From: Phycisphaerales bacterium
Lineage (GTDB): Bacteria; Planctomycetota; Phycisphaerae; Phycisphaerales; SM1A02
Direction: 5' to 3'
Length of the DNA: 64,000 nucleotides
Assembly (NCBI GenBank): GCA_029245245.1
Contig: JAQWPT010000001.1
Span: 1-64,000, forward strand
How positions within the stretch are numbered: position 1 is the stretch's first letter; each line of letters opens with the position of its first letter. The notes below the pieces were generated by a model. That model was not told the DNA's origin. It saw only the letters and a program-made list of their open reading frames with translations, and did no database searches. Shown here piece by piece: positions 2,285 to 62,800 of the stretch. Both the position numbers and the translations under genes were made by a program.

Positions 2285-3406
2285 ATGGAGCAGTCACCCC
2301 GTTTCAATACCCGTTTGACCGTCCTGCACTGGCTTTGCTGCCTTGCAGTGGGTCTGCTGATCCTGTCGCAGGGGGCGGGAGCCCAGGAGCGTGCTGCGGC
2401 CAGTGACATCAACTTTGCTTCCACCGAGCATGACTTCGGCGCCATCATGGATGTCGAGACGTACCAGACGGCGTTTCCATTCGTGAACTCTGGGACCGGT
2501 TCACTGGTGATCAAGCAGGTGAAGGCGGGATGCGGCTGCACCACTCCGGCCCTTGACAAGAAGGTCTTTGCGCCCGGTGAAGCCTCCGAGATCAAGGTGA
2601 GCTTCAAGCCCAAGGGATCCGGTCGACAGACAAAGCGGATCACGGTCTACACGAACGATCCCGAGACCCCGGTGATCACCCTGGCGATCAAGGCGGACAT
2701 TACCCCGTTCGTCACCGCCACTCCGAAGATGGTCCGTTTCCAGAGTTCCACCATCGGCACCGGTGATCAGGCCGTCGTCCAGTTGGCGGCCCTTGATCCC
2801 CAGTTCAGCGTCAACCGGGTCTACATGAGTGGACTTGCTTCCAGGTATTTCAGCGCTCAGCTGCTGCCGAGACCCGAGGGGATCACCGATGGTCCCCGCA
2901 GCGTCCTCGTCAGTCTTTCGCCGGAGGCGCCCTGGGGCGCGCAGTACGCCACATTGAACGTTGAAGTCGAGGGAAAGCCAACGCCTGAAAGTGAACCGGT
3001 CACCCATGTCGCCAAGGTGACGACGAGCGCAAAGATTTCTGGAACTCTCCAGCCCAGCGCCACCATGTTCCAGGTGGGTATCGTCGAACCAGGTGAAACC
3101 TTCAGCAAGACCATCACCCTGCGAAATGTTGATCGCAAGGAGTATCAGGTGCTTTCTGCGACCATCGACAAGGGGACGGTGGGGGACATGGAGGTGGCTT
3201 TCGTGCCGTCTCCCTCGGGGCTGTCGAACTGGTTGCTCGTGCTCACGGGCACTCCTGGTCGTACCGAGCAGCCCATCCGTGGTGACGTCACCATCTATAC
3301 GGATGTACCCGGTGAGGAAGAGTTGGTGATTCGCATTGGTGGCATGGCCCGCACCGGCGGCGCCTCGGCCGTACGACCCTCCAGCCCTGGACAATCGAAG
3401 CCATGA
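2285..3406 (+). CDS. DUF1573 domain secreted protein
   Basis: The product is 373 residues. The ATG at 2285 is preferred over an in-frame start at 2156 because it begins a typical signal peptide (basic n-region, then a hydrophobic stretch ending in GAGAQ), whereas the upstream extension looks random. Residues 45-135 match DUF1573: a DFG start, then the AGCGCTTP motif, then an FKPKG beta strand and a TNDPETP segment, giving an immunoglobulin-like fold. The remainder appears to hold further beta-sandwich material. Proteins of this family are exported in planctomycetes and Bacteroidetes but have no proven biochemical role. The stop codon overlaps the start of the next gene (ATGA at 3403), so the two genes are probably translationally coupled. 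Confidence 0.85.
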   Translation: MEQSPRFNTRLTVLHWLCCLAVGLLILSQGAGAQERAAASDINFASTEHDFGAIMDVETYQTAFPFVNSGTGSLVIKQVKAGCGCTTPALDKKVFAPGEASEIKVSFKPKGSGRQTKRITVYTNDPETPVITLAIKADITPFVTATPKMVRFQSSTIGTGDQAVVQLAALDPQFSVNRVYMSGLASRYFSAQLLPRPEGITDGPRSVLVSLSPEAPWGAQYATLNVEVEGKPTPESEPVTHVAKVTTSAKISGTLQPSATMFQVGIVEPGETFSKTITLRNVDRKEYQVLSATIDKGTVGDMEVAFVPSPSGLSNWLLVLTGTPGRTEQPIRGDVTIYTDVPGEEELVIRIGGMARTGGASAVRPSSPGQSKP

Positions 3407-4968
3407 TCGACCTCTTCCTGCTCGCCGACGGTACGGTGGCCGGTTCCGCCTGGCCGCTGTTCGGTCGGTTGCACCCGCTGCTGATCCACTTCCCGATCGC
3501 GATGATTCTCACCGCGGCCGCCGTGGAGTTGGTGCTCGTGGTTCGCCGCGATGCCCGCCCCTCGCCGATCGCCGCCTTCTGCCTCTGGGTCGGCACGGTC
3601 TTCGCCTGCCTGGCAGCCTGGACCGGGTGGAGTTTCGGTGAAGAGTACGGCTCGGGAAACACCCTGGAACTTCATCGATGGTTTGGTGTCGCCGCCGCAG
3701 GCGTTCTGGTCGCGGTGGTGGTCTGCTGGTGCATTGAGCGATCAAGCAAATCCAACTGGTCCTTCCACGCGTACCGCTTCGGCCTCTGGGGCGGCGCGAT
3801 GCTCATCATCGTGACCAGTTTCTTCGGAGGAGAGATGGTCTGGGGCGAAGGGTATCTCTTCGACGATGATGATCGTGCGGTGATCACCACGGAACCCGTC
3901 GTGATGGAAGATGCCGGGCTCCAGGACCAGGTCGCCACGATCATCGAGGCTCGCTGCGCTTCCTGCCACGGGCCGGAGAAGCAGAAGGACAAACTCCAAC
4001 TCTTCCCGCTGGCCAAGGCGTTTCCTGCTGATCGCCAGGCCAGGTGGGTTGTCATTCCCGGCGATCCCGACGCCAGCAAGCTGATCCAACGCGTCATGCT
4101 GCCCGCCGATCACGATGACCGCATGCCTCCCAAGGGAGAGCCATTGACCTCGGAGCAGGTGGACCTGCTCAAGGAGTGGATTACGGACGGGGCGCCCCAT
4201 GACGCCGCCGCCGCATCTCCGCCGTCAACTCCGGAGATGACGGAGGCACCACCGGCATCGGTGGAGCCGGCGCCGACGATCGATCCCGCCACCCTCGACG
4301 CAGCCCTTGCCGCCATCGGTGCACGTGGAGGCATGATCGCTCCGCGGCACCAGGGATCGCCCTGGTACGAACTCAATGCATCTCTGGCTCGACCGGCCTG
4401 GACCAACGCCGACCTGGACCTGCTGACACCACTTGAGCCGGTGCTCTGGCGCCTGGACCTCGGTGGCAGCAGTGTGACCGACGCCGGAATGCCCTTGATT
4501 GGCCGATGTGTCCAGTTGCGCACGCTGAAGCTCGATCGCACCGGGGTCGGCGATGCGGGGCTCTCCGATCTGCGAAAGCTGGTGCACCTGGAGTCGTTGA
4601 ACCTGTTCGGGACCGACGTCTCCGATGCCGGCCTGCCTGCGATGGAAGCGTTGCCGGCGCTGCGGACGCTCTACCTCTGGGACACGAAGGTTCAGGCCGC
4701 CGCGGCACAGCAGGCTCATGCCCGCCGTCCGCAACTGGACATCGAACTTGGTGAGGACCTCGTGGTGCAGGAGCCAGCGGAGACCGACCCCGAGGCAGAT
4801 CCCACGCCCGCTGCGGCTGGGGCCGAGGAATCACCAACCCAGGAGGTGGCAGCCGAAGACCTGCCCGCCTGCTGCCGCGCTGCCGAGGCCCAGGGCCGCG
4901 AATGCGATCATCCCTGCTGTGTGAAGGCCCGGGCCCAGGGCGTTGTCTGTCCCGACTGTCCGAAATGA
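3403..4968 (+). CDS. Membrane protein with DUF2231, planctomycete cytochrome c and leucine-rich repeats
   Basis: The product is 521 residues with several modules. Residues 20-145 contain four hydrophobic helices starting LHPLLIHFPIA, the DUF2231 signature. A single heme c motif, CASCH at residues 185-189, sits in a planctomycete-type cytochrome domain (PSCyt1) with a candidate distal Met in RMPPKGEPL. A Pro/Ala-rich linker leads to leucine-rich repeats at about residues 345-440, of the LDLGGSSVTDAGM type. The C-terminal 30 residues are unusually Cys-rich. The combination suggests a membrane-anchored periplasmic electron-transfer protein with a protein-binding surface, but the partner is unknown. 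It is coupled to the DUF1573 gene through an ATGA overlap. Confidence 0.8.
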   Translation: MIDLFLLADGTVAGSAWPLFGRLHPLLIHFPIAMILTAAAVELVLVVRRDARPSPIAAFCLWVGTVFACLAAWTGWSFGEEYGSGNTLELHRWFGVAAAGVLVAVVVCWCIERSSKSNWSFHAYRFGLWGGAMLIIVTSFFGGEMVWGEGYLFDDDDRAVITTEPVVMEDAGLQDQVATIIEARCASCHGPEKQKDKLQLFPLAKAFPADRQARWVVIPGDPDASKLIQRVMLPADHDDRMPPKGEPLTSEQVDLLKEWITDGAPHDAAAASPPSTPEMTEAPPASVEPAPTIDPATLDAALAAIGARGGMIAPRHQGSPWYELNASLARPAWTNADLDLLTPLEPVLWRLDLGGSSVTDAGMPLIGRCVQLRTLKLDRTGVGDAGLSDLRKLVHLESLNLFGTDVSDAGLPAMEALPALRTLYLWDTKVQAAAAQQAHARRPQLDIELGEDLVVQEPAETDPEADPTPAAAGAEESPTQEVAAEDLPACCRAAEAQGRECDHPCCVKARAQGVVCPDCPK

Positions 4969-11726: not shown

Positions 11727-11893
11727 GCGGCCTCACGAGAGCCGAAACACGCGATGGTCGAAGAGCAGTTGAAGCAACAGCCACCATATTCCTGATGTTG
11801 TCGCAGCCTTCATTGCAGATGGCATAGATCCATGAGGGCGAGCCGTGTCTCGCCTGCATCACTGGCATGGATGAATCTGCAGAGGAGTGAGCC

Positions 11894-14837: not shown

Positions 14838-16028
14838 ATGAAGATCCACGAATACCAGGCCCGTGAACTGCTCGCATCCGCGGGCATCCCCGTGCCCTCG
14901 GGCTGCATGTGCACCACGGTCGACACGGCCGTCGAGGCCGCTGAATCCATCATGGCCGATGGGGCCGGACTCGTGGTCGTCAAGGCCTAGGTCCACGCTG
15001 GTGGTCGAGGCAAGGCAGGCTTCGTCAAGGTCGTCGACTCGATCGATGCGGTGCGCGAAGCGGCCACCTTCATGCTGTCCAACCGGATGGTCTCGAATCA
15101 GACCGGGGCCGAGGGACTCGAGGTCAATCGACTGCTCGTGGCCGCGGCCGTGGACATCGAACGGGAACTCTACCTGGCCATCACCACCGATCGTGCCCGT
15201 GAGACGAACACGCTCATCGCCTCCGCCGAGGGCGGGGTGGAGATCGAGGCCGTGGCCGAGTCGAACCCCGATGCGATTCTCAAGCTCCCGATGGACCCGC
15301 TCGACGGCCTGGATCGCGCCAAGGCGGCCGAGCTCGCCGGGCAACTCGGCTTCGAAGGCGACCAGCTCGAGCAGGCCGTGGACATCATGGCCCGGCTCTC
15401 GGAACTCTTCGTGGAGAAGGACGCGTCGCTGGCGGAGATCAATCCGCTGATCGTCACGCCCGCAGGCGAGGTCATGGCCATCGATGCGAAGTTCAACTTC
15501 GACGACAACGCATTGTTCCGCCAGGAAGCGATCGCGGACCTCTTCGATCCGACCGAGGAGAACGCCGACGAACTGCATGCCAAGAAGTTCGGCCTGAGCT
15601 TCGTGGCCCTCGATGGCAACATCGGCTGCCTCGTCAACGGGGCGGGGCTCGCCATGAGCACCATGGACATCATCAAGCTCGAGGGCGGGGAACCGGCCAA
15701 CTTCCTTGACGTCGGCGGAGACGCGTCCCTTGAGGCGATCACCGAGGCCTTCCGAATCATCCTCTCCGAGGAGAAGGTCACCGGCGTGCTGGTGAACATC
15801 TTCGGCGGCATCATGCAGTGCGATCGGATCGCCCAGGCCATCGTCACCGCGGCCAAGGAAATCGGGTTCACCGTTCCGCTGGTGGTGCGGCTTGAGGGCA
15901 CGAACGTGGAAGCAGCCCGGGCCATCCTCGAAGAAGCCCGGTCTGGACTGCCGACCATGCAGACCGCCGGCGACCTGGCCGATGCAGCTCGCAAGGTCAC
16001 CACGGCTGCCGCCGTCGCCGTTTCCTGA
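14838..16028 (+). pseudogene. sucC: Succinyl-CoA synthetase beta subunit interrupted by an amber codon
   Basis: The frame from ATG 14838 to 16028 would encode 396 residues that match SucC end to end, beginning MKIHEYQARELLASAG and including [28 protein letters not shown] and [12 protein letters not shown]. Codon 51 (14988-14990) is TAG where the family has glutamine in the motif VKAQVHAGGRGKAG, so a single C-to-T change from CAG explains it. The stop falls immediately after the ATP-binding lysine and before the Gly-rich loop. A GTG at 15051 could restart translation but would give a protein lacking the nucleotide-binding loop. Sequencing error, a real null mutation or amber suppression all remain possible; TAG ends other genes in the window normally (11726, 55934). 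The partner sucD is not adjacent. Confidence 0.85.
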
Positions 16029-16040
16029 TCAAGGATCCCA

Positions 16041-16727
16041 ATGCTTGTCCTGCTCGACATCGATGGCACGCTCCTGACCAGCGAAGGCATTGGTGCCCGG
16101 GGCATCGTGCAGACAGGGGTGGAGCTTTTCGGGGAGGACTTCTCCCTCGATGGCATCGAACTGGGGGGCCGCCTGGATCCGCTGATCTTCAAGGAGGCGA
16201 TGGCCGCCCTTGGCCGCGATGATCATGCGGAGCACCATGGCGACTACCGGGGCCGCTACCTGGAGACACTCGGCGCACTGCTTGCCGCGGGTCACGATGT
16301 CCAGATCCTTCCCGGCGTGGTGGAACTGCTCGAGCGACTGGCGGCCCACGACGGTGTGACGATGGCGCTGGTGACGGGCAACTACATCGAGTCGGCCCAC
16401 ATGAAACTCGAGGCAGCGGGAATCGACCCGGAACTCTTCACCGGCGGCGCCTACGGCGACGAGGGTGAGATCCGGCATGACCTGCCGCCACTGGCGATCG
16501 AGCGGTTCCGGGCCGACAACGGTCGCGATCCCGTCGACATCGTCCTGCTGGGTGACACCGAGCACGATGTGACCAGCGGCCAGGCCGCGGGGTGCCGGGT
16601 CCTGGCCGTCTGCACCGGCAGTCATCCGGCGCAGCGATTGCATGACTCCGGGGCCGACCTGGTGCTGGAGGATCTCTCGGACGTGGAGTCCGTACTCAAG
16701 TGGATCCTCGACGGAGGCCGCGCATGA
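16041..16727 (+). CDS. HAD-family hydrolase, phosphoglycolate phosphatase-like
   Basis: The product is 228 residues. HAD motif I is LLDIDGTLL (nucleophile Asp6, general acid Asp8), motif II is LVTGN, and motif IV is [11 protein letters not shown] helical cap lies between residues 15 and 90. The pattern is that of GPH-type small-molecule phosphatases in the cytoplasm; the substrate cannot be read from sequence. The gene lies 12 bases after sucC, in the position where sucD usually sits, and its stop overlaps the start of the DUF418 gene (ATGA), so the two are probably cotranscribed. Confidence 0.85.
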
Positions 16728-38533: not shown

Positions 38534-41308
38534 TCAGTTGGCGTCGATATCGATCATGTCGATCTTGTCGCTGTCGATCTCGGTCTGCTTCGGGTCCTGA
38601 TCGGGAAGCACCACGTCGCCATCATCAACAGCCTTCGTGGCATTGTTGAGGTTCTGTCCGGCGATGCGCTCGTTGATCTTGAGGTCCAGCGTCTCCTGAT
38701 TGGCAAGCTGCTCGGCCAGCGGCCGGGAGACCTCTTCAAGTCGAATGAGGTCTTCGCGGTTGAAGTTGTCGTAGTTGTCGTCGGGATTCTGAACCACGGA
38801 AGGCGTGATGAAAGCGAGCAGTTCGTTGCGCTCCATCGTTTCATCGGTGTACTTGAAGAGTTCGCCGATGATGGGAATGTCACCCAGCAGCGGAATCTTC
38901 GACTTGAACTGTCGTTCGCTTTCCTTGAGCAGGCCGCCGATGACGACGGTCTGACCATCAAGCACGATGACGTGGCTGTTGACCTGCTTCCTTGAGAAGA
39001 CATCGGCAGTGGTTGTGTTGCTGCCAACCTGTGTTTTGCCAATGATGTCGGACAACTGCAGGCTGATCTCCAGGTCGACCGTGCCTTCCTGGGTGATGCG
39101 TGGGCGGACGTTCAGGAAGACGCCGACATCCCTGTATTCGAACTGGGTGTTCAGCGAGTTGCCGCCGGCAAGGTCGGTGGTGTTGCTGGTGGGAATGGGA
39201 ACTTCCTTGCCGGAGAAGAAGACGGCTTCCTCGTTGTCGGCGGTGAAGACCCGTGGTTCCTGGATGATTCGGGTGTTGGTCACCTGGGCCAATGCTTCGA
39301 TGATCACTCGCACGTCGAAGGTGTTGATGTTCAATGTCGACGTCGTCGTGCCGTTGAGCAGCTCGCCGAGAAAGTCTGTCACGGTTGCGGTCATCGAGTT
39401 GCCGAGTCCGTCGGCGAGGCCGCCGCCCCAGTACTGGCCGCCGACATCGTCGGATTGTGTTGCTCCCGCACCGTACTTGAATCCGAAGTTCAACTGGTCC
39501 GTGATATCAACCTCGACCACGGTGGCCGAGAGCAGGACCTGCCGGCGAGGCCGGTCGAAGCTTTCGATCAGATTGACCATGGGTTCAAGGAAGGATTGCG
39601 GAGCCAGCACGGCCAGTGCGTTCTGTCGGACGATCGGAACGATTCGGACCTTGCCGATGAGCGAGGATTCCGGTGACTGTTCGTCATCTTCGCTGCCTCG
39701 CTGCCAGGGGAAGTTCAGTTCCTGGCCAGTGGTCGTGGTGTTCTGTACGCCGGCGCCGGTGCTGGTACCGGAGGGAGATTCGAAACCTTCTCCGCTGAGC
39801 CCGGTATCGGGCCTGGGAATGGATACGTTGGTTCCGGGCTTTGACAGCAGCACGTTCAATTCCTCGGAGAGTTCGACAGCCCGCGCGTACTTGAGCTGGA
39901 TGATCCGGGGAACACCGACGTTGCTTGGTTGATCGAGTTCCTGAATGATCGAGGAGATGAAGTCGAAGGATTCAACGGTCTTGGCGAGTACGAGCAGCGC
40001 ATTCTTGTCCGGGTAGGCGTCGATCGAGTAGATGCCGGAGATGGCCTGGGTCGCGTTTGCTCGCTGGTTGTTCTGTCCTCCGCCTCTGGACGAGCCGCCG
40101 CTGCTGCCGCCTTCGCCAAGAACCTCCTCCAGCAATGACTTGATCTTCAGCGGATCGGTGTACTTGAGCACGAAGAGACGGGACGTACCGGCGGAGCGGG
40201 GAAGATCCCATTCGGTGCCGATGAGGGTTGCGATCTCTTCCATGATGCCCGGCTCGGTCTGCACGGTTACCGCGTTCTGCTGCACGCTGACAGTCAGGCG
40301 CAGTTCGATGCCCGTGTCGCTGCTGGACGCGCCGGTCCTGTTGCTGGACCCCTGGCTCCGAGTGTTCCGCTGGTTGGTACTGGTGCCGGTGCTTCGTCGG
40401 CTGGAACTCGTGGAGGTTCCGCCGGAGAAGAGGTCCTCGATGTTCGTGGCGATCTCATTGGCATCTGCCCACTTCAGCCGGAAGGTGTGCATTCGGCGGT
40501 TCAGCCACTTCTGGTCGAGCTCACGGATGATCTTGTCGTATTGCTGGCAGAGACCGATGTCGCCGAGCACGATGATCTGGTTTGAGAGTTCATCCACCCA
40601 GACCTCGGCATACTGCGGCTTCATCTCAGAGATCTTGTCCGCAATCTCGCCCGCGTCGCTGACGGTGACGGGAAAGATTTTCATCACGATGGTGCCGCGG
40701 TCCTTGCGGTCACGGATGTCCACCGCGGCATCAAGGACTGGGATGTCACTCATCTCGTCGGTGATCGTCGTGAGATCAAGTTTGGTGAGAATGATCAACT
40801 GTGGTCGTTCGATCACGGCGATGCCGTTCATGCGCAGGGCGCTGAAGAGCATGTCGAGGGCTTCACGTTTCTCGATGGGCTCATCGACGATGACCGTGAT
40901 CTTCCCGCCGGTGGAGCCGATGCCGATGCCGGAGCCATCCAGTTTCAGGGGCATCACGATCTTGCCGGTGATCTTGGCGAGCCAGGGGACGATTTCCTTG
41001 ATCTCGACGTTGTCGAAGGCGAAGTTGATCTTGCCTTCCGGGATCGGCCGCCGGTTGAGATGGGCCTGCTCGATGGGTTCGAGCACGCTGGAGGGTCGAT
41101 AGCCGTCGGCGTTGCGAGAGTTGATCGGCTCGGCCACCGGCAGTTCATTCGCCGGTTCCGGATTTGATTCGTTCGTCTCTTCGGGGAGCGCCTCCGGCGG
41201 AGCTTCGGGTGCAGGACGGCCGTCCTCCTGGGCCCACGAGGAGTCCGCAAGGCCGCAGGTCAGCAGGAGAGGAAGGAGAAATGCGATGTTGATCTTGTTG
41301 CGTGCCAC
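38534..41308 (-). CDS. gspD: T2SS secretin GspD
   Basis: The product is 924 residues from a GTG at 41308 that begins a good signal peptide (ends SSWAQ); the frame continues back to a TTG at 41347. A Pro/Glu-rich stretch is followed by N0-type (NVEIKEIVPWLAK) and several N1-type ring domains with Ser/Gly/Asn-rich loops (about residues 300-340 and 415-435). The secretin core has FGFKYGAG, VPIPTSN, DVGVFLNVRPRI and the signature VIGGLLKESER followed by KIPLLGDIPIIGELF. It forms the outer-membrane exit channel of the T2SS. The C-terminal tail of about 100 residues is charged. It lies 99 bases after the gspC-like gene. Confidence 0.93.
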   Translation of the reverse strand: MARNKINIAFLLPLLLTCGLADSSWAQEDGRPAPEAPPEALPEETNESNPEPANELPVAEPINSRNADGYRPSSVLEPIEQAHLNRRPIPEGKINFAFDNVEIKEIVPWLAKITGKIVMPLKLDGSGIGIGSTGGKITVIVDEPIEKREALDMLFSALRMNGIAVIERPQLIILTKLDLTTITDEMSDIPVLDAAVDIRDRKDRGTIVMKIFPVTVSDAGEIADKISEMKPQYAEVWVDELSNQIIVLGDIGLCQQYDKIIRELDQKWLNRRMHTFRLKWADANEIATNIEDLFSGGTSTSSSRRSTGTSTNQRNTRSQGSSNRTGASSSDTGIELRLTVSVQQNAVTVQTEPGIMEEIATLIGTEWDLPRSAGTSRLFVLKYTDPLKIKSLLEEVLGEGGSSGGSSRGGGQNNQRANATQAISGIYSIDAYPDKNALLVLAKTVESFDFISSIIQELDQPSNVGVPRIIQLKYARAVELSEELNVLLSKPGTNVSIPRPDTGLSGEGFESPSGTSTGAGVQNTTTTGQELNFPWQRGSEDDEQSPESSLIGKVRIVPIVRQNALAVLAPQSFLEPMVNLIESFDRPRRQVLLSATVVEVDITDQLNFGFKYGAGATQSDDVGGQYWGGGLADGLGNSMTATVTDFLGELLNGTTTSTLNINTFDVRVIIEALAQVTNTRIIQEPRVFTADNEEAVFFSGKEVPIPTSNTTDLAGGNSLNTQFEYRDVGVFLNVRPRITQEGTVDLEISLQLSDIIGKTQVGSNTTTADVFSRKQVNSHVIVLDGQTVVIGGLLKESERQFKSKIPLLGDIPIIGELFKYTDETMERNELLAFITPSVVQNPDDNYDNFNREDLIRLEEVSRPLAEQLANQETLDLKINERIAGQNLNNATKAVDDGDVVLPDQDPKQTEIDSDKIDMIDIDAN

Positions 41309-41407
41309 GTCAATCTTCTCGAGGGGTGCCAACGGTGAGTGGGGCAAGGCCCGGATGGGTCAACGAATGATCCGTGCCGACTATTCCATGTACAGGTGCC
41401 TGGTTCT

Positions 41408-42280
41408 TCATTTCGCTTCTCCGGGATCGCCTGCCACCGGGGCTGGTGCCAGTTCCGCCTCCGGGGTCACCGGGCTTTCTTGATCAACTTCGGTGCCCGC
41501 ATCATTGGCAGGCTCCAGTGGTGGGGCTTCAAGACCACGTTCCACTTCATCGGGTGCGATTGTGCCGGAATCGAGTGCGGGCGTCTCGCTCGCCTTGGTG
41601 TCGTCAAAGGGAGCGTCGACCCCTTCGATCTTCGGCGGGCATGGTTCACCCATGTGCTCGTGGTGTTCTTCGGAGATGTCCTCAAGCACGCCATCGGGCA
41701 TCTTGATGCTGGGGGGCATGTCGGCGAAGGGCGTGCTGTCCATGTCGATCAGCGCTACCTCGTAGGGCCCACCACCCTGGTAGTTGACCGTGATGCCACG
41801 CGGTGGATTGGTCGAAACCACATTGATGTCATCGTGGCTGTCGCCGATCTTCAGGCGGGTCAGCGGATCGCCGTCGCTGGCCTTCTCCTTGAACCATGCT
41901 TCGTCGCCGAGAATGGCCACGAGCTTGGGCCCGGTGTAATTCGGCGGGTACCTCGGGGGAGGTGGTGGCGGGGGCGGCTTGTCTTCTTCTTCCGTCTTTG
42001 GCGGAGGCGGTGGCGGAGGCGGGGGAGGCTTCCGCTTGATGTCCGGGGTGTAGAAGAACGATCTCCCATTGAACCGATCCACATCGGTTTCCATGTTCGA
42101 CTGGTGCCTGGCCAGCAACTTGTCCATCGAGTCGTTCGGTTCCGGAGATCCGAGCATGATGGTGGAACCGGAGCGGTAGAGGCCCGGCGTCATGACCACC
42201 AGGAAGATCACGATCAGGGCAAGGGCTGCAATGCTGAAGTTCAGCGGATTGAGCATGGAAGTGTTGCGGTTGGGTTTCAT
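41408..42280 (-). CDS. GspC/PilP-like inner-membrane protein with polyproline linker
   Basis: The product is 290 residues from ATG 42280, which overlaps the gspM-like stop; an ATG at 42295 is less likely. One membrane helix (about residues 15-37) is followed by a linker with two polyproline runs of ten and eight prolines, then a small beta domain with GPKLVAILGDEAWF, RLKIGD and GITVNYQGG that matches the homology region of GspC and PilP, which docks on the secretin. An acidic Pro/Glu tail of about 90 residues follows. The position between gspM and gspD supports this role. The polyproline probably acts as a rigid periplasmic spacer, as in TonB. Confidence 0.7.
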   Translation of the reverse strand: MKPNRNTSMLNPLNFSIAALALIVIFLVVMTPGLYRSGSTIMLGSPEPNDSMDKLLARHQSNMETDVDRFNGRSFFYTPDIKRKPPPPPPPPPPKTEEEDKPPPPPPPPRYPPNYTGPKLVAILGDEAWFKEKASDGDPLTRLKIGDSHDDINVVSTNPPRGITVNYQGGGPYEVALIDMDSTPFADMPPSIKMPDGVLEDISEEHHEHMGEPCPPKIEGVDAPFDDTKASETPALDSGTIAPDEVERGLEAPPLEPANDAGTEVDQESPVTPEAELAPAPVAGDPGEAK

Positions 42281-42855
42281 CGCGATCGCACCCATGCTTC
42301 AAGAGAAATCCGGGTTCGTACCTGCTTGTTGCCGGCCTTGTCGATGCGGATGTTGGTGACGGACTCGATGCCGGGGTGGGACTCCAACTCCGAGATGATC
42401 TGGATCGCATTTCCGGCCGACGAGGAGAAGTCGAGTTCGCCCTTGACTCGTTCGATCTTTTCTCCGGCCTGAGCAATGCCGGGGAGCACGCTGGCTTTGA
42501 TGGCATTGCTCTGCGCCTGGTAGAACGTGTCGTTCTTGACTCCATGTCGTGACAGGATGTCCTGCACGATCTCGATGAGAGCGAGCGAACCATCCGCCTT
42601 GCGGTCCGGAAGCACGATGCTGCCGTAGGTCAGGGCGGCATTCTGGGAGCGGGCATCAAGGGACACCGAGTTGCTGGTTCGTTCCAGGTTCGACTCCATG
42701 CGATCAGCGGTCTCGGCCCAGGCCGTGCTGGAGGGATCCAGGATCTGCGCCCAGATGAGGAAGGCGAGCAGGAATACGCACGCTCCGAGAACCCACTGCC
42801 AGACGGGTTCGAGTCCGCGGAATCGATCGATCTGTCGGGAGGCATCGAGTTTCAT
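42277..42855 (-). CDS. GspM/PilO-like T2SS protein
   Basis: The product is 192 residues. One membrane helix (about residues 18-38) is followed by a short helical stretch and a ferredoxin-like domain (GELDFSSSAGNAIQIISELE, then ITNIRID-like strands ending ISLEAWVR). This bitopic layout is that of GspM/PilO, the inner-membrane platform partner of GspL/PilN. Four-base overlaps join it to gspL and the gspC-like gene. Confidence 0.75.
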   Translation of the reverse strand: MKLDASRQIDRFRGLEPVWQWVLGACVFLLAFLIWAQILDPSSTAWAETADRMESNLERTSNSVSLDARSQNAALTYGSIVLPDRKADGSLALIEIVQDILSRHGVKNDTFYQAQSNAIKASVLPGIAQAGEKIERVKGELDFSSSAGNAIQIISELESHPGIESVTNIRIDKAGNKQVRTRISLEAWVRSR

Positions 42856-44786
42856 GAGCCATCCCCACGCTGGAGTTCACGCATGTGCTTCAGAATCAGG
42901 TTGAACTCGTTCTTCATGCGGGCCTTGGCTTCCGGGTCCCTTGAGCGTTTTCTGGCTTGCGCGATCTCCTGCAACTTGATCTTTGCTTCACCAAGGGTGA
43001 AGGCCTGGATCTGTTCCTCGCTCAGCGGTTCCGGGTCCGTCCCGGTTGGAACGGAGGAAAGGTCACCGGCCCGGTCGTCCGCGTCGCCCCGGGAGGAGAA
43101 GCCCTCGGCACTGGTGCGAGGGCTCCTGGAGGAGCTGCCTGTGCGAGTGGGAGCTGTCGCTGTTCGTTCGGTGGCGGCGGGTTCGCTCGCTGGCGAAGGC
43201 GGCGCCGACAGTCCGCGGTCGGCGGGCGAGGACGAACTGCCGCGGTCGAACGGTGTTGATGTCGAACTGGCCACGGCCGTGGTGCCGTCGAGCCAGTTTC
43301 CGTCGGCATCCTGGCCGCTCTTGCGTTCGGAGAGTGTCCACGTGGCGAAATCCTGCTGCAGTGCGTATCCGGGGCGATACTGGGGTCGCTTCACCGTTGC
43401 ACTGATGTCGAAGGATCGATTTCCGAAGGTCTCGGAATCCTCCCATCGCAGTGTGACATCGGAGAAGACGCCGGAGTCCTGAAGCATCGCCTTCATGCGT
43501 GTGGCCAGTGCGGCGGATTCTTCTTCGCTGCTGGGCATGGCCATGCCCTGGATGCGGACAGGTTCGCCGTAGCCGAGTCGGATGGAATCGACCTCGATTC
43601 CCTCGGGTGTGTTCGATGCGATGTCGGCGAGCAACTTGGACATGGGCCACGCTTCACTCATCAGTGCGCCGTACATGACCTGCTGATCCCGGTTGTCTTC
43701 GTAGGTCTTGACCTGTTCTCCCAGACCCGGGTGCAGTATCGAGAGCATGGCCACCCGTGTGCCATGGAAGGCCATGGGGCCGATGGCCAGCAGGCAGACG
43801 GCAAGAAGCACGAGAGCGACTGCGACCTCAACGGATGAGAGCCGCCTGGTTGCGAACTCGCCGAGGCTCGGGGTTTCCTCGGGCAGGCTGTGCTGGAACA
43901 TGGTCAGGGGGGCGAGGTCGTCGCTCATGGCCAGTGCCGCACCAGCTGCGATACCCCAGGTATCGAGCCACGCCTGGTCCATCTCGCAGCCACGCAGGCG
44001 TTCCTGCATCGATTCCAGGACGGACTTGGGCAGTTGGAGCGTGCGTGGTGTAGTGGCGTCGCCAAGTCCAGCGGAGGCTTCCATTGCGATGTTGCGTGAA
44101 GATTCCGGCGTGCTTCCGGCCTGCAGCGCCGTTTCCATGAGCAGTTGATCGATGCACTCCCGGCTCGTGGCGGAGTCGGGCAGGTGCGCCTTGGTCGCTC
44201 GGACATGAACGCGTTCCTGCTGGGCCATCACCATGGTGACGGTGCCGTCTTCGCGATCCACCCACAGGGTGGGTGCCTTGGGGTGCAGGTTGCCGACCAG
44301 TGAGCACATCGCTGCGACATCGGGGATGTAGAGCGGTGCAGGTTCCAGGTCGGGCCCGATGAAGTCGGAGGTCTCCGGCCATGCAAGGACCAGCCCGGTG
44401 CGGGTTGTCGCATGAGCAGGGGCCGGCAGCATGGCTGCGGCCGTTCGGAACATCGGGGCGGTGCCGAGCAACTTGGATTCCGCCTGCAGTTGCAGGGCTT
44501 CATCCAACTGGTCGGGTTCCGCATTGGGAAGGCTGCAGGTGCGGCAGATGATGGATGATCCTGGAACAACGACTCGAACCATGTTCGTGTTGCCGGCCTC
44601 GACCCAGTCCTTGAGGCCCTGTGTATCACCGGCATCGAACGTGGTAGCCGATGTGATGGTCACGCCGTCAATGGGATCGATACCGGCATGGAGACAGGCC
44701 CACTGCCTGCCTTGTCGGTGAAGGATTGAGATCCTGGTGCCCGGAATGTCTAGGTGTTCTGTCTGCGTCACGTTCGTACCGGTCAT
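42852..44786 (-). CDS. GspL-like protein (PilM plus PilN in one chain)
   Basis: The product is 644 residues. The first 335 form an actin-like PilM/GspL cytoplasmic domain (VRVVVPGSSIICRTCSLP, then ALQLQAESKLLG and a C-terminal WGIAAGAALA). A membrane helix (about residues 345-365) leads to a PilN-like ferredoxin domain (TPEGIEVDSIRLGYGEPVRI, then LRWEDSETFGNRSFDISATV). The final 170 residues, rich in Ser, Thr, Arg and Pro, appear disordered and end in a helix. It should link the GspE ATPase to the inner-membrane platform. It lies 141 bases after gspK, in the only large gap of the cluster. Confidence 0.8.
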   Translation of the reverse strand: MTGTNVTQTEHLDIPGTRISILHRQGRQWACLHAGIDPIDGVTITSATTFDAGDTQGLKDWVEAGNTNMVRVVVPGSSIICRTCSLPNAEPDQLDEALQLQAESKLLGTAPMFRTAAAMLPAPAHATTRTGLVLAWPETSDFIGPDLEPAPLYIPDVAAMCSLVGNLHPKAPTLWVDREDGTVTMVMAQQERVHVRATKAHLPDSATSRECIDQLLMETALQAGSTPESSRNIAMEASAGLGDATTPRTLQLPKSVLESMQERLRGCEMDQAWLDTWGIAAGAALAMSDDLAPLTMFQHSLPEETPSLGEFATRRLSSVEVAVALVLLAVCLLAIGPMAFHGTRVAMLSILHPGLGEQVKTYEDNRDQQVMYGALMSEAWPMSKLLADIASNTPEGIEVDSIRLGYGEPVRIQGMAMPSSEEESAALATRMKAMLQDSGVFSDVTLRWEDSETFGNRSFDISATVKRPQYRPGYALQQDFATWTLSERKSGQDADGNWLDGTTAVASSTSTPFDRGSSSSPADRGLSAPPSPASEPAATERTATAPTRTGSSSRSPRTSAEGFSSRGDADDRAGDLSSVPTGTDPEPLSEEQIQAFTLGEAKIKLQEIAQARKRSRDPEAKARMKNEFNLILKHMRELQRGDGS

Positions 44787-44927
44787 GCCCTCTGGGGGCT
44801 GTAAGAATAGCGAAATCCCCGTTTTTTGGGGCTGTCAGGAGTCATGTGGGGTTCCTGGAGTGCTTGGTGAATATGAAGAGGGCAAAAGTGGCCTTTCAAG
44901 CCCCGTAAAGGGGGTATTTTGCCTTCC
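44787..44927 (-). other. Gap with hairpins between gspK and gspL
   Basis: This 141-base gap separates the pseudopilin half of the cluster from the platform half. Read on the minus strand it holds CCCC/GGGG hairpins and a possible promoter (TTGAAA, 17 bases, TCATAT), so gspLMCD may have its own start of transcription. I see no gene or known riboswitch in it. Confidence 0.35.
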
Positions 44928-46283
44928 TCACTCTTCCCGGTACTCAAGGATCCTCACCGGTACTGTTGAACGATCAACGATGGCGATGATTTCACATTCC
45001 GCCCCAGAACCACCGGATACTCCCTGAGAACTGATGGTGTACACGTTGCTGCGGGCCGTGAAGCCCATGGCCAGTTCCTGTAGGAGATCATCGGTCATCT
45101 CGGGTATCTCTCTGAGATCCATGATGCCCGTAATGCCCTCGTTGCGGTTGTATCGCATGCTCAGGATGCTCTCTACGAGATCCTCCCGTCCCTCATACAT
45201 GTCCATCAAGAGGCGGCGGCTGGTGGTGTTGATGTTGAGCTTGCCAATATTGGGCTGGTGACTCGGTGAGGTCGAGGTCTCGTCGAAGATGGCCTGGATC
45301 TGCCAGTCTTGAAGCGGGGCGATCGGGTCCCCTGTCTCCTGGCTCTGCCCCTGGTTCTGCTCCTGGTTCTCCGTGGAGTCCTCGGATTCGGAGAGTGGGG
45401 TGGTGATCAGTGATTCGAGCATGAAGTCATCGGACTTGGCCATCGACATCAGGGTCTGGGCCTGCTGTTCACTGATCCCCAGCCGCTCGACCAGTTCCTC
45501 GATGGTAGTCAGCGGGTAGTAGATTCTCGGCAGACCACTGGCGGTTGCTCCGCCGTCGGTTGAGGTGGCGGTGAGGTATGCGGCCCACCCTCCGTCGAGG
45601 ATGCCGTCGGGCTCGTCATTGGGCATGGAACCCTCGCCGTCATTCTCATTCGCGTCGAGGCGGTTGTTGAGATTCCAGTCTTCGCCGCGAATGTCATCGG
45701 GGTCGAGTCCCGCGATCAGTTCCATTTCCGCCACATGCCATATCGGCGCGTTGCGTGGTTCGTAGCGCGCCTCCAGTGACAGGTAGTAGTCCTTTTCGAC
45801 GCCGAGTTCCCGCGGATCATCGTCCTCATCGATCCAGTCTTCGATCGCGGGTGAAACGCCCCAGGACATCGGGGAGAAGATCACTGCCAGGTAGCCGCGG
45901 CCATCGCCGTTGACATTGAGTTTTGAATGTTCGTCCATCGGCCCCGGCCATGGCTTTCCGTCGAGATCGTTGTGGCTGATGTTCCATTTGCCATGCTCGG
46001 TTTCGCCGAATGCGACATTCTCCATGTCCAGGGTCAGTGCCAGGGCGTTGCCCGATTCCGGTTCCACGGTGTGGTAGGCCATGACGGCGATGGTTGATTC
46101 GATGCCGGCCCGTGCCGTCCATCGTGCGCGGATGTCATCCAGCGTTTCCACACCCAGCATGCTTTGCCGGCCGGAGAAGACCAGGAGAGAGCTCACGATC
46201 AGTGCGCAGATGGAGATGGCCCAGATCACGACCACCACGGCCGAACCACGGCGGGGAACGGGATGTCGTGTTCGTCGTCTCAT
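44928..46283 (-). CDS. gspK: T2SS minor pseudopilin GspK
   Basis: The product is 451 residues. The N-terminal GSAVVVVIWAISICALIVSS is a GspK-type pseudopilin helix that lacks the usual Glu5. A large middle domain, including an acidic segment with NRLDANENDGEG, and the GspK SAM-like fold LGISEQQAQTLMSM follow; near the end NIGKLNINTTSRRLLMDM is the family hallmark. GspK caps the pseudopilus tip. The gene overlaps gspJ by four bases. Confidence 0.9.
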   Translation of the reverse strand: MRRRTRHPVPRRGSAVVVVIWAISICALIVSSLLVFSGRQSMLGVETLDDIRARWTARAGIESTIAVMAYHTVEPESGNALALTLDMENVAFGETEHGKWNISHNDLDGKPWPGPMDEHSKLNVNGDGRGYLAVIFSPMSWGVSPAIEDWIDEDDDPRELGVEKDYYLSLEARYEPRNAPIWHVAEMELIAGLDPDDIRGEDWNLNNRLDANENDGEGSMPNDEPDGILDGGWAAYLTATSTDGGATASGLPRIYYPLTTIEELVERLGISEQQAQTLMSMAKSDDFMLESLITTPLSESEDSTENQEQNQGQSQETGDPIAPLQDWQIQAIFDETSTSPSHQPNIGKLNINTTSRRLLMDMYEGREDLVESILSMRYNRNEGITGIMDLREIPEMTDDLLQELAMGFTARSNVYTISSQGVSGGSGAECEIIAIVDRSTVPVRILEYREE

Positions 46284-59257: not shown

Positions 59258-62200
59258 ATGCCCGGGAAGCTTGAACAACTGATCAACCGCCGCCCATTGA
59301 TCATCGATGGGGCGATGGGATCGGCGCTCCAGCAGATGGATCTCACCGTCGAGGGTGACTACATCGGCAGGGAGAACTGCGTTGATCTCCTGGTCCGCTC
59401 GCGGCCGGAAGTCATCCAGTCGATCCACGAATCCTTTCTCGCCGTCGGCAGCGACGCGGTGGAAACCGACACGTTCGGGGCGAACCCGATCGTGCTGGCC
59501 GAGTTCGACGACGAAGTCTCCTCCTGGGCCCGAGCACTCAACCGGGAGGCGGCCGAGGTGGCGCGGGCCGCATGCGATGCACACGCGACGGCGGATGCTC
59601 CGCGGTTCGTGCTCGGCTCGATGGGGCCGGGTACGCGACTGATCACGCTGGGCCAGGTTCCATGGGAAGCGATGCTCGAGAGTTATGCCGAGCAGGCACG
59701 CGGACTGATCGATGGTGGGGTGGACGCGTTCCTCATAGAGACCTGCCAGGACCTGCTTCAGGTCAAGTGCGCGGTCAATGCCTGCCTCAAGGCCATGGAG
59801 GAAGCGGGCCGAACCCACGAAGACATTCCCATCATGGTGAGCGTGACGATCGAGACCACCGGCACCATGCTGCTGGGAACGGAGATTGCTGCCGCAGTCA
59901 ACGCACTTCGTTCCTACCCGATCTTCTCGCTCGGTCTCAACTGCGCGACTGGTCCGCGGGAGATGACGGCCAACATCGAGCACCTGTCGCGTGCGTGGCC
60001 CAGGCGGATCTCGTGCGTGCCCAATGCCGGGCTGCCCGTACTCGTGGAAGGTCGCACGGAGTTTCCACTGCAGCCGCTGCCGCTTTCCGAAACCATCGGA
60101 GAGTTCATCGATCGCTACGGAGTCGACATCATCGGCGGCTGTTGCGGGACCCGCCCCGAGCACATTGAACTGCTGGCTGGCCAGGCCCGCAGTCGCCAGC
60201 GGGCCCGCCGTGATCATTCCGGCTGGACACCGGGGTGCGCAAGCCTCTACGCACCCGTGGACTACCGCCAGGAAGCATCCTTCTTCATCGTGGGGGAGCG
60301 TCTCAACGCATCGGGTTCACGCCGATTCAAGCGACTTCTTGAATCCGACGACATCGATGAGATGGTATCGCTGGCCCGCCAGCAGGTTCGCGAGGGCGCC
60401 AACTGTCTTGACCTGAACGTCGACGCCACCGGGCGCGACAACGCCGCGGACATGGCCAGGATCGTCGAAAGCCTGGTCCGACAGGTCGACAAGCCGTTGA
60501 TGCTCGACTCGACCCAGATTGCAACCATCGAGTCGGGACTTCGGCACGCCGGTGGCAGATGCATCATCAACTCCGCGAACTTCGAGGATGGTGAGGAGAA
60601 GTTCGACCGGTTCTGCGAGTTGGCGAAGACCTTCGGGGCCGCGCTGGTCATTGGCACCATCGACGAAGACCCCGAAGCCGCCATGGCCCGGACAGCCGAC
60701 CGCAAGGAGTCCATCGCTCGTCGTGCCATCGAGCGTGCCGTGGACATTCACGGCCTCGCCGTCGAGGATCTGTTCATCGATCCGCTGGTCCTGCCCATCT
60801 CCACCGGAATGGACGATGATCGACGCAGCGCCCTGGAACTGATCGACGGGGTTCGTCGCATCGCCTCGGCCTGGCCGACGATCCAGATCACATGCGGCCT
60901 CTCCAACTGCTCCTTCGGCCTCAAGCCGGCGGCACGCCAGGTGCTCAACTCCGTGTTCCTCTGGGAACTCATGGATGCGGGCCTGACGTCGGCGATCGTG
61001 CATGCCTCCAAGATCCAGCCGATGAACCGTATCGATCCGGCTCGCAAGCAGGCGGCCCTGGACCTGATCTACGACCGCCGTGCGCTCTCGCACGGAGGCA
61101 CCGGCCTGCCGGCGAACATCGAGAACGAGGACCACGATCCGCTGCAGGCGTTCATCGATCTCTTCGACGATGACGAGGGCACGGCAACGGACCGGGTCGA
61201 GCGGAAGCTGTCGCTCGAGGAATGGCTGCAGACGCACATCGTCGATGGCGAGAAGCAGGGGCTGATCGAGCACCTCGAAGAAGCGATGCAGAAGTACGCT
61301 CCGGTCGAAATCATCAACAATCACCTGCTCTCGGGCATGAAGACCGTCGGCGAGCTCTTCGGCTCCGGCCAGATGCAACTTCCCTTCGTCCTGCAGTCTG
61401 CGGAAGTCATGAAGATGGCCGTGACGCACCTGGAGCCCCACATGGAGAAGGTGGAGGGATCCACCCGCGGCCGCGTGGTGCTGGCGACGGTCAAGGGCGA
61501 CGTGCACGACATCGGCAAGAATCTCGTGGACATCATTCTCAGCAACAACGGCTGGACGGTGCACAACATCGGCATCAAGCAGCCCATTGAGGACATCGTC
61601 CAGGCCTGGCGTGAGACGGGAGCCGACGCCATCGGCATGTCAGGCCTCCTGGTCAAGAGCGTGATGGTGATGGAGGACAACCTCGCCGTGCTCAACGAGA
61701 TGGGCATCGGAGTGCCGGTGCTGCTTGGTGGGGCGGCCCTGTCGCGGCACTACTGTGAGTCACACCTCCGCAACATCTACCAGGGGCCGCTGTACTACGG
61801 CAAGGACGCCTTTGATGGGCTGCGCATCTGCGATCTGCTGGCCGAGGGCAGGACCGAGGCCCTCGATGCCGAGATCGACCTGCGCCTGGCCAAGCGAGCG
61901 GCGGTGGAGACCCGCGTGAACGCCATGGCGGGCGATGGTGCCTCGGATGCCGGGGACGGACAGACCATGGTGGCCGAACGCAGCGACGTGGCACGGGACA
62001 TCCCGGTCCCGGGTGCACCGTTCTGGGGATCACGCCTCGTCGAGGACATTCCGTTGACCACCATCTACCCCTACGTGAACACCGTGGCCCTCTTTCGTGG
62101 GCAGTGGGGGTTCCGCAAGGGCGATCGATCCAAGGGCGATTACCAGCACTACCTCGACGAGCAGGTGCAGCCGATCTTCGATCGCCTCAAGCAGTCGCTG

Positions 62201-62800
62201 GCTGAGGACGGCATCCTGCAACCGAAACTCGTCTATGGCTGGTACCCGGTGGCCGGTGACGGGGACGACCTGGTCGTCTTCGACCCGGAGGACCATGCGT
62301 CCGAGATCGAGCGATTCACCTTTCCCCGCCAGTCGAAGCGACGTCGACTGTGCATCAGCGACTTCTTCCGCGACGCCGACAGCGGCGAGCGTGACGCGCT
62401 GGGCCTGTCCTGTGTGACCATGGGCAGCGAAGTCAGCGAGTTGGCAGCACGGCTCTTCGCCGACGACGCCTACCAGGAGTACCTCTACGTCCACGGCATG
62501 GGCGTGGAGTGCGCCGAGGCGCTGGCAGAACTCTGGCACAAGCGGATGCGCGAGGAACTGGGCATCGACGGCGACGACAGTCCCCATGTCCGCGACCTCT
62601 TCACACAGACCTACCGCGGTAGCCGCTATTCATTCGGCTACCCGGCCTGCCCGGACATGAGCCACCAGGAGATCCTGTTCAGGCTCCTGGAGCCCGATCG
62701 CATCGGGTGTACGTTGACGGAGAACTGGCAGATCGATCCCGAGCAGAGCACCTCGGCGATCATCGTGCACCATCCCGAGGCGAAGTACTTCAACGTCTGA
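59258..62800 (+). CDS. metH: Cobalamin-dependent methionine synthase
   Basis: The product is 1180 residues, close to the usual 1200. It transfers a methyl group from methyltetrahydrofolate to homocysteine. Domains in order: homocysteine-binding (DGAMGSALQQM, zinc cysteines in NCATG and GGCCGTRPEH), pterin-binding (GERLNASGSRRF, LDLNVDATGRDN, LPISTGMDDD), B12 cap and binding (KGDVHDIGKNLVDIILSNNG, where the His ligates cobalt), and activation (AELWHKRMREELG, RYSFGYPACPDMSHQ for S-adenosylmethionine). All key residues seem intact. The promoter lies very close and a terminator follows. Confidence 0.96.
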   Translation: MPGKLEQLINRRPLIIDGAMGSALQQMDLTVEGDYIGRENCVDLLVRSRPEVIQSIHESFLAVGSDAVETDTFGANPIVLAEFDDEVSSWARALNREAAEVARAACDAHATADAPRFVLGSMGPGTRLITLGQVPWEAMLESYAEQARGLIDGGVDAFLIETCQDLLQVKCAVNACLKAMEEAGRTHEDIPIMVSVTIETTGTMLLGTEIAAAVNALRSYPIFSLGLNCATGPREMTANIEHLSRAWPRRISCVPNAGLPVLVEGRTEFPLQPLPLSETIGEFIDRYGVDIIGGCCGTRPEHIELLAGQARSRQRARRDHSGWTPGCASLYAPVDYRQEASFFIVGERLNASGSRRFKRLLESDDIDEMVSLARQQVREGANCLDLNVDATGRDNAADMARIVESLVRQVDKPLMLDSTQIATIESGLRHAGGRCIINSANFEDGEEKFDRFCELAKTFGAALVIGTIDEDPEAAMARTADRKESIARRAIERAVDIHGLAVEDLFIDPLVLPISTGMDDDRRSALELIDGVRRIASAWPTIQITCGLSNCSFGLKPAARQVLNSVFLWELMDAGLTSAIVHASKIQPMNRIDPARKQAALDLIYDRRALSHGGTGLPANIENEDHDPLQAFIDLFDDDEGTATDRVERKLSLEEWLQTHIVDGEKQGLIEHLEEAMQKYAPVEIINNHLLSGMKTVGELFGSGQMQLPFVLQSAEVMKMAVTHLEPHMEKVEGSTRGRVVLATVKGDVHDIGKNLVDIILSNNGWTVHNIGIKQPIEDIVQAWRETGADAIGMSGLLVKSVMVMEDNLAVLNEMGIGVPVLLGGAALSRHYCESHLRNIYQGPLYYGKDAFDGLRICDLLAEGRTEALDAEIDLRLAKRAAVETRVNAMAGDGASDAGDGQTMVAERSDVARDIPVPGAPFWGSRLVEDIPLTTIYPYVNTVALFRGQWGFRKGDRSKGDYQHYLDEQVQPIFDRLKQSLAEDGILQPKLVYGWYPVAGDGDDLVVFDPEDHASEIERFTFPRQSKRRRLCISDFFRDADSGERDALGLSCVTMGSEVSELAARLFADDAYQEYLYVHGMGVECAEALAELWHKRMREELGIDGDDSPHVRDLFTQTYRGSRYSFGYPACPDMSHQEILFRLLEPDRIGCTLTENWQIDPEQSTSAIIVHHPEAKYFNV

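Follow-up and report, generated by a model that had tools for sequence, protein, structure and literature searches.

The window, a stretch of 64,000 nucleotides from a planctomycete-like draft genome, carries a sucC gene whose reading frame contains a single amber codon. The features at the locus are as follows.

14838..16028, + strand: sucC, encoding the ADP-forming succinate--CoA ligase beta subunit, with one TAG (from the frame, the profile and the 1jkj_B alignment)
14988..14990, + strand: in-frame TAG at codon 51; CAG or CAA (Gln) in relatives (from the frame and the relatives' loci)
15000..15014, + strand: the Gly-rich loop (GGRGK), separated from the TAG by three codons (from the sequence)
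15051..15053, + strand: GTG, the first in-frame restart codon past the TAG (a product from there lacks the loop)
16041..16727, + strand: HAD-family hydrolase gene downstream of sucC, intact and 86% identical to that of a congener

We recovered the same frame that an earlier, sequence-only reading had described: it runs from the ATG at 14838 to the TGA at 16026-16028 and is open over its 396 codons except for the TAG at 14988-14990. Under the standard code, the full-length frame is therefore interrupted at codon 51, where the local protein stretch reads KA-[TAG]-VHAGGRGK. With the TAG read as Gln, the product scored 513.3 bits against NF001913 (cut-off 370) in a match spanning profile positions 1-386 of 388, and both of its domains, ATP-grasp_2 and Ligase_CoA, were matched. 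Alignment to the PDB chain 1jkj_B, an E. coli beta subunit, gave 389 bits nearly end-to-end and placed a Gln at the TAG site. The gene resembles SucC (NF001913 / TIGR01016) over its full length and in both domains, and differs in having one TAG for a conserved Gln codon. Agreement of this kind is more than chance and indicates that the sequences before and after the TAG encode parts of a single protein. The GGRGK Gly-rich loop has an ATP-binding role, and the GTG at 15051, the first available restart, lies downstream of it. The earlier claim that a restart there would lose the loop is thus borne out. As written, sucC would yield a 50-residue fragment and hence no beta subunit.

We examined codon 51 among relatives. 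Besides the window's own genome, 60 related genomes were searched for sucC and 59 gave a match. The site was Gln in all 59 of the loci that cover it (58 genomes), as 26 CAG and 3 CAA in a first set of 29 loci and 28 CAG and 2 CAA in a second set of 30. One genome (G011) was left out of the codon count, as its match stops short of codon 51. A named genome collection gave 581 confirmed sucC candidates, of which we kept the best 80. Planctomycete (Phycisphaerales-type) MAGs make up most of the top of this list, and on that ground we regard the present genome as planctomycete-like; Gln occupied the site in 80/80 of these best 80. Of these loci, 73 divided into 54 CAG and 19 CAA, and the remaining 7, found with a looser pattern, into 6 CAG and 1 CAA. 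The two sets of loci may overlap. These counts uphold the proposal that the TAG replaces a conserved Gln ahead of GGRGK. Both same-genus genomes, G001 and G002, have CAG, so that, as had also been proposed, the codon is one transition (C-to-T) away from theirs.

Every relative's sucC match that had been flagged for an apparent internal stop was inspected. The "stops inside" flags at L061, L062, L063, L066 and L077 were natural terminators, with a frame that is open from a point ahead of GGRGK through to the usual C-terminus. Those in G034, G050, G052, G042, G046 and G057 were also natural terminators, and the aligned part was free of stops. At L199 in G040, a weak match flagged for TAA was not recovered by tblastn. 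One genome of the same family, G031 (~90% complete), had no sucC match in the search, which may reflect an assembly gap or a true lack of the gene.

We asked how long sucC could have carried the stop. By a simple Nei-Gojobori calculation with the stop codon excluded, dN/dS against the nearest congener, G002, was 0.059. Parsimony counts in a three-way comparison gave 10 amino-acid changes unique to this genome plus the stop (11 in all), compared to 13 unique to G002 and 24 unique to G001. With dN/dS this low and no more private amino-acid changes here than in the congeners, these comparisons indicate that sucC either is still functional or ceased to be so only very recently. DNA identity around sucC between this genome and the congeners is about 75-77%, which places the separation of the lineages far back. 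With this identity and many further base differences, G001 and G002 are by sequence other species, and would be uninformative on alleles within this one. The sequence-only reading had looked to relatives with CAG in which this base would be the sole difference. The first part stood, since CAG is what G001 and G002 carry, and comparison with them showed nothing else in sucC that would break the frame; the second did not, as many other bases differ.

The twelve ORFs neighbouring sucC contained no internal stop and, where compared, aligned with the congeners in the same frames. At 11888, 9898 and 8453 the congener alignments did show stops in true frames, but these were rejected as interruptions, since they lie upstream of the start codons of those genes. 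We also considered how the C-to-T change could have arisen. The relatives' sequence is GCC CAG G, and the changed base is the inner C of CCAGG, a classic 5-methylcytosine mutation hot spot. Dcm-type deamination was dropped because no member of the C5-methyltransferase family PF00145 was found in this genome (10 of 14 control genomes were matched).

The genes for the SucC partner and for the enzyme that precedes it in the cycle are both present. An intact sucD lies on contig C31 (387.7 bits; cut-off 353.2), and sucA is intact on C27. Location of sucD and sucC on different contigs also occurs in G001, G002, G006 and G036. Retention of these genes fits a working SucC. The genome further contains a two-gene ligase paralogue, consisting of a 512-residue ATP-grasp protein, of which the first ~370 residues are SucC-like, followed by a SucD-like protein:

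L002 1495-3033 and 3033-3953 (this genome, G000, contig C30, ~354504-356920): two-gene ligase paralogue

Over the part that it shares with SucC, the first member has 32% identity; it scored 200.7 bits (cut-off 370), and both members fall below the sucC and sucD cut-offs. Matches to both were likewise obtained in G002, G006 and G036. In the congener G001 the paralogue was not found, the sucC search giving one match only. The search that had been suggested for a second sucC and for sucD was successful for sucD; for a second sucC it returned only this distant, sub-cut-off paralogue. We claim no replacement of SucC by the C30 pair.

We determined whether UAG might be read as sense in this genome. 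There were 45 tRNAs above the Rfam cut-off. A CUA anticodon, which the sequence-only reading had suggested looking for, was found in none of the 45 (ARAGORN anticodons), a set that is itself incomplete, lacking Gly-GCC and Arg-TCT, both of which are present in G006. The tRNA-Gln genes were CTG and TTG only. We saw no sign that release factor 1 is lost or changed: an RF1-like gene on C10 has an unbroken frame and carries PAT, although its TIGR00019 score (370.8 bits) is below the cut-off of 423.25. A second release-factor match has SPF and is RF2-like; PAT marks RF1-like and SPF RF2-like proteins. PylS (TIGR02367) had no match in this genome, while 13 of 14 control genomes were matched, one of them above the cut-off.

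TAG also serves as an ordinary terminator. It ends 28 of 247 long ORFs (3/34 in the window and 25/213 in 20 sampled stretches), a count that uses the training set of the coding scan, in which some ORFs may be shadow frames. This agrees with the earlier argument that normal TAG termination of other genes speaks against general reassignment. The coding-potential scan covered the window and the 20 stretches, ~462 kb of 2.69 Mb, with moderate sensitivity (550 of 890 random positions inside long ORFs passed). It yielded 32 stops with coding-like flanks (28 TGA, 3 TAG and 1 TAA). Among the three TAG codons, only that of sucC resembled an interrupted gene, and the suggested survey for further in-frame TAG codons thus found no second convincing case in ~462 kb. 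The TAG at L171 1934 (- strand) is followed 3 and 6 codons on by start codons and, by eye, by a new gene-like N-terminus, and that at L185 16066 (- strand) is flanked, also by eye, by just 41 open codons on one side and 5 on the other. An initial scan under different criteria had returned 29 candidates, of which two were TAG: sucC and the L171 case. Together, these data do not support amber suppression or reassignment.

In G006, which belongs to another genus of the same family, we observed one in-frame TAG in the two-gene ligase paralogue, in a frame that is otherwise open:

L192, contig C43, inside match 2956-4083, reverse strand: TAG of the G006 paralogue; GAG (Glu) in this genome's copy

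This TAG is a G-to-T difference at a Glu site and does not repeat the sucC change. None of the 45 tRNAs in G006 has a CUA anticodon. The G006 codon fits another sporadic break in a draft. In strict terms a shared cause of the two ambers, both in CoA-ligase-type genes, is conceivable.

A model that accommodates these data is that the window holds an ordinary sucC in which one isolated C-to-T in the consensus puts an amber in place of a conserved Gln codon, with no recoding machinery involved. We consider this very probable, the T being either a draft-consensus error or a nonsense allele too young for further decay. That the T is erroneous or newly arisen is our inference. An error of consensus or assembly, in which case living cells would have the Gln codon and a normal enzyme, has a slightly better than even chance. 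It is favored by the change being one transition, in a draft of 38 contigs with contamination estimated at 2.61%, by constraint on the rest of sucC, by the intact sucD and sucA, by the Gln in relatives and by the stray TAG in the G006 draft too. Consensus substitution errors are, however, uncommon at good coverage, and a check of the twelve ORFs around sucC turned up no further broken gene. We give somewhat less than an even chance to a true nonsense allele of very recent origin in the sampled population, strain-level or segregating, that knocks out SucC. The C30 pair might partly buffer such a loss, but at 32% identity and 200.7 bits (cut-off 370) that paralogue is distant and it was not found in G001; sucC itself has no sign of decay.

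If the frame, which is unbroken and under constraint both before and after the TAG, were instead translated through it, amber suppression or readthrough would put an amino acid at codon 51. The incomplete tRNA set and the lone TAG in the otherwise open G006 ligase gene lend themselves to this idea. We nevertheless regard it as very unlikely: CUA is missing from the 45 tRNAs both here and in G006, the genome has a PAT-bearing RF1-like gene and PylS was not found in it, TAG is a regular terminator with no second convincing internal case in ~462 kb, the G006 TAG is at a Glu rather than a Gln codon, and CAG or CAA in relatives means that this is not a conserved readthrough site. Less probable still is the fuller version in which the TAG is real and fixed in the species, UAG is read by a near-cognate tRNA or by a suppressor tRNA in an assembly gap, and G006 is a second case. 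Loss of SucC long ago in the lineage, leaving an old pseudogene, would explain the stop itself; with dN/dS at 0.059 and the branch not enriched in amino-acid changes, we give it almost no weight. Thus, of the three options that the sequence-only reading had offered, sequence error stands, as does loss of the enzyme if the nonsense allele is recent; long-standing loss runs against purifying selection, and suppression is unsupported.

Single-base nonsense differences occur in draft or metagenome-assembled genomes. The sucC TAG is likewise isolated, one transition from the relatives' codon, in a gene whose rest is constrained, and has no known point of difference from them. A different precedent is genetic code 15, TAG-to-Gln, which a report on crAss-like phages (PMC9523058) describes for some of these phages. 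The likeness is the TAG at a Gln position; however, code 15 is a phage reassignment, while here a single codon is affected in a bacterial core gene, in a genome that has an RF1-like gene and also uses TAG as a normal stop. According to passages of Shulgina and Eddy (PMC8629427), the bacterial code changes known then all reassign UGA, and apparent stop-codon readings in eight yeast species were put down to erroneous alignment. Should the sucC TAG prove real and be translated as sense, it would amount to natural amber readthrough of a bacterial core gene in a genome that also terminates with TAG. On present evidence, it calls for caution against reading biology into one base of a draft genome.

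Elsewhere in the window, positions 38537-46283 (- strand) contain type II secretion-like genes, including a secretin (GspD-like) and a GspK-like protein. A membrane protein at 3403-4968 (+ strand) matched DUF2231 and planctomycete cytochrome C (PSCyt1), with weak leucine-rich repeat matches. At 59258-62800 (+ strand) lies a cobalamin-dependent methionine synthase with its methyltransferase, pterin-binding, B12-binding and activation domains matched.
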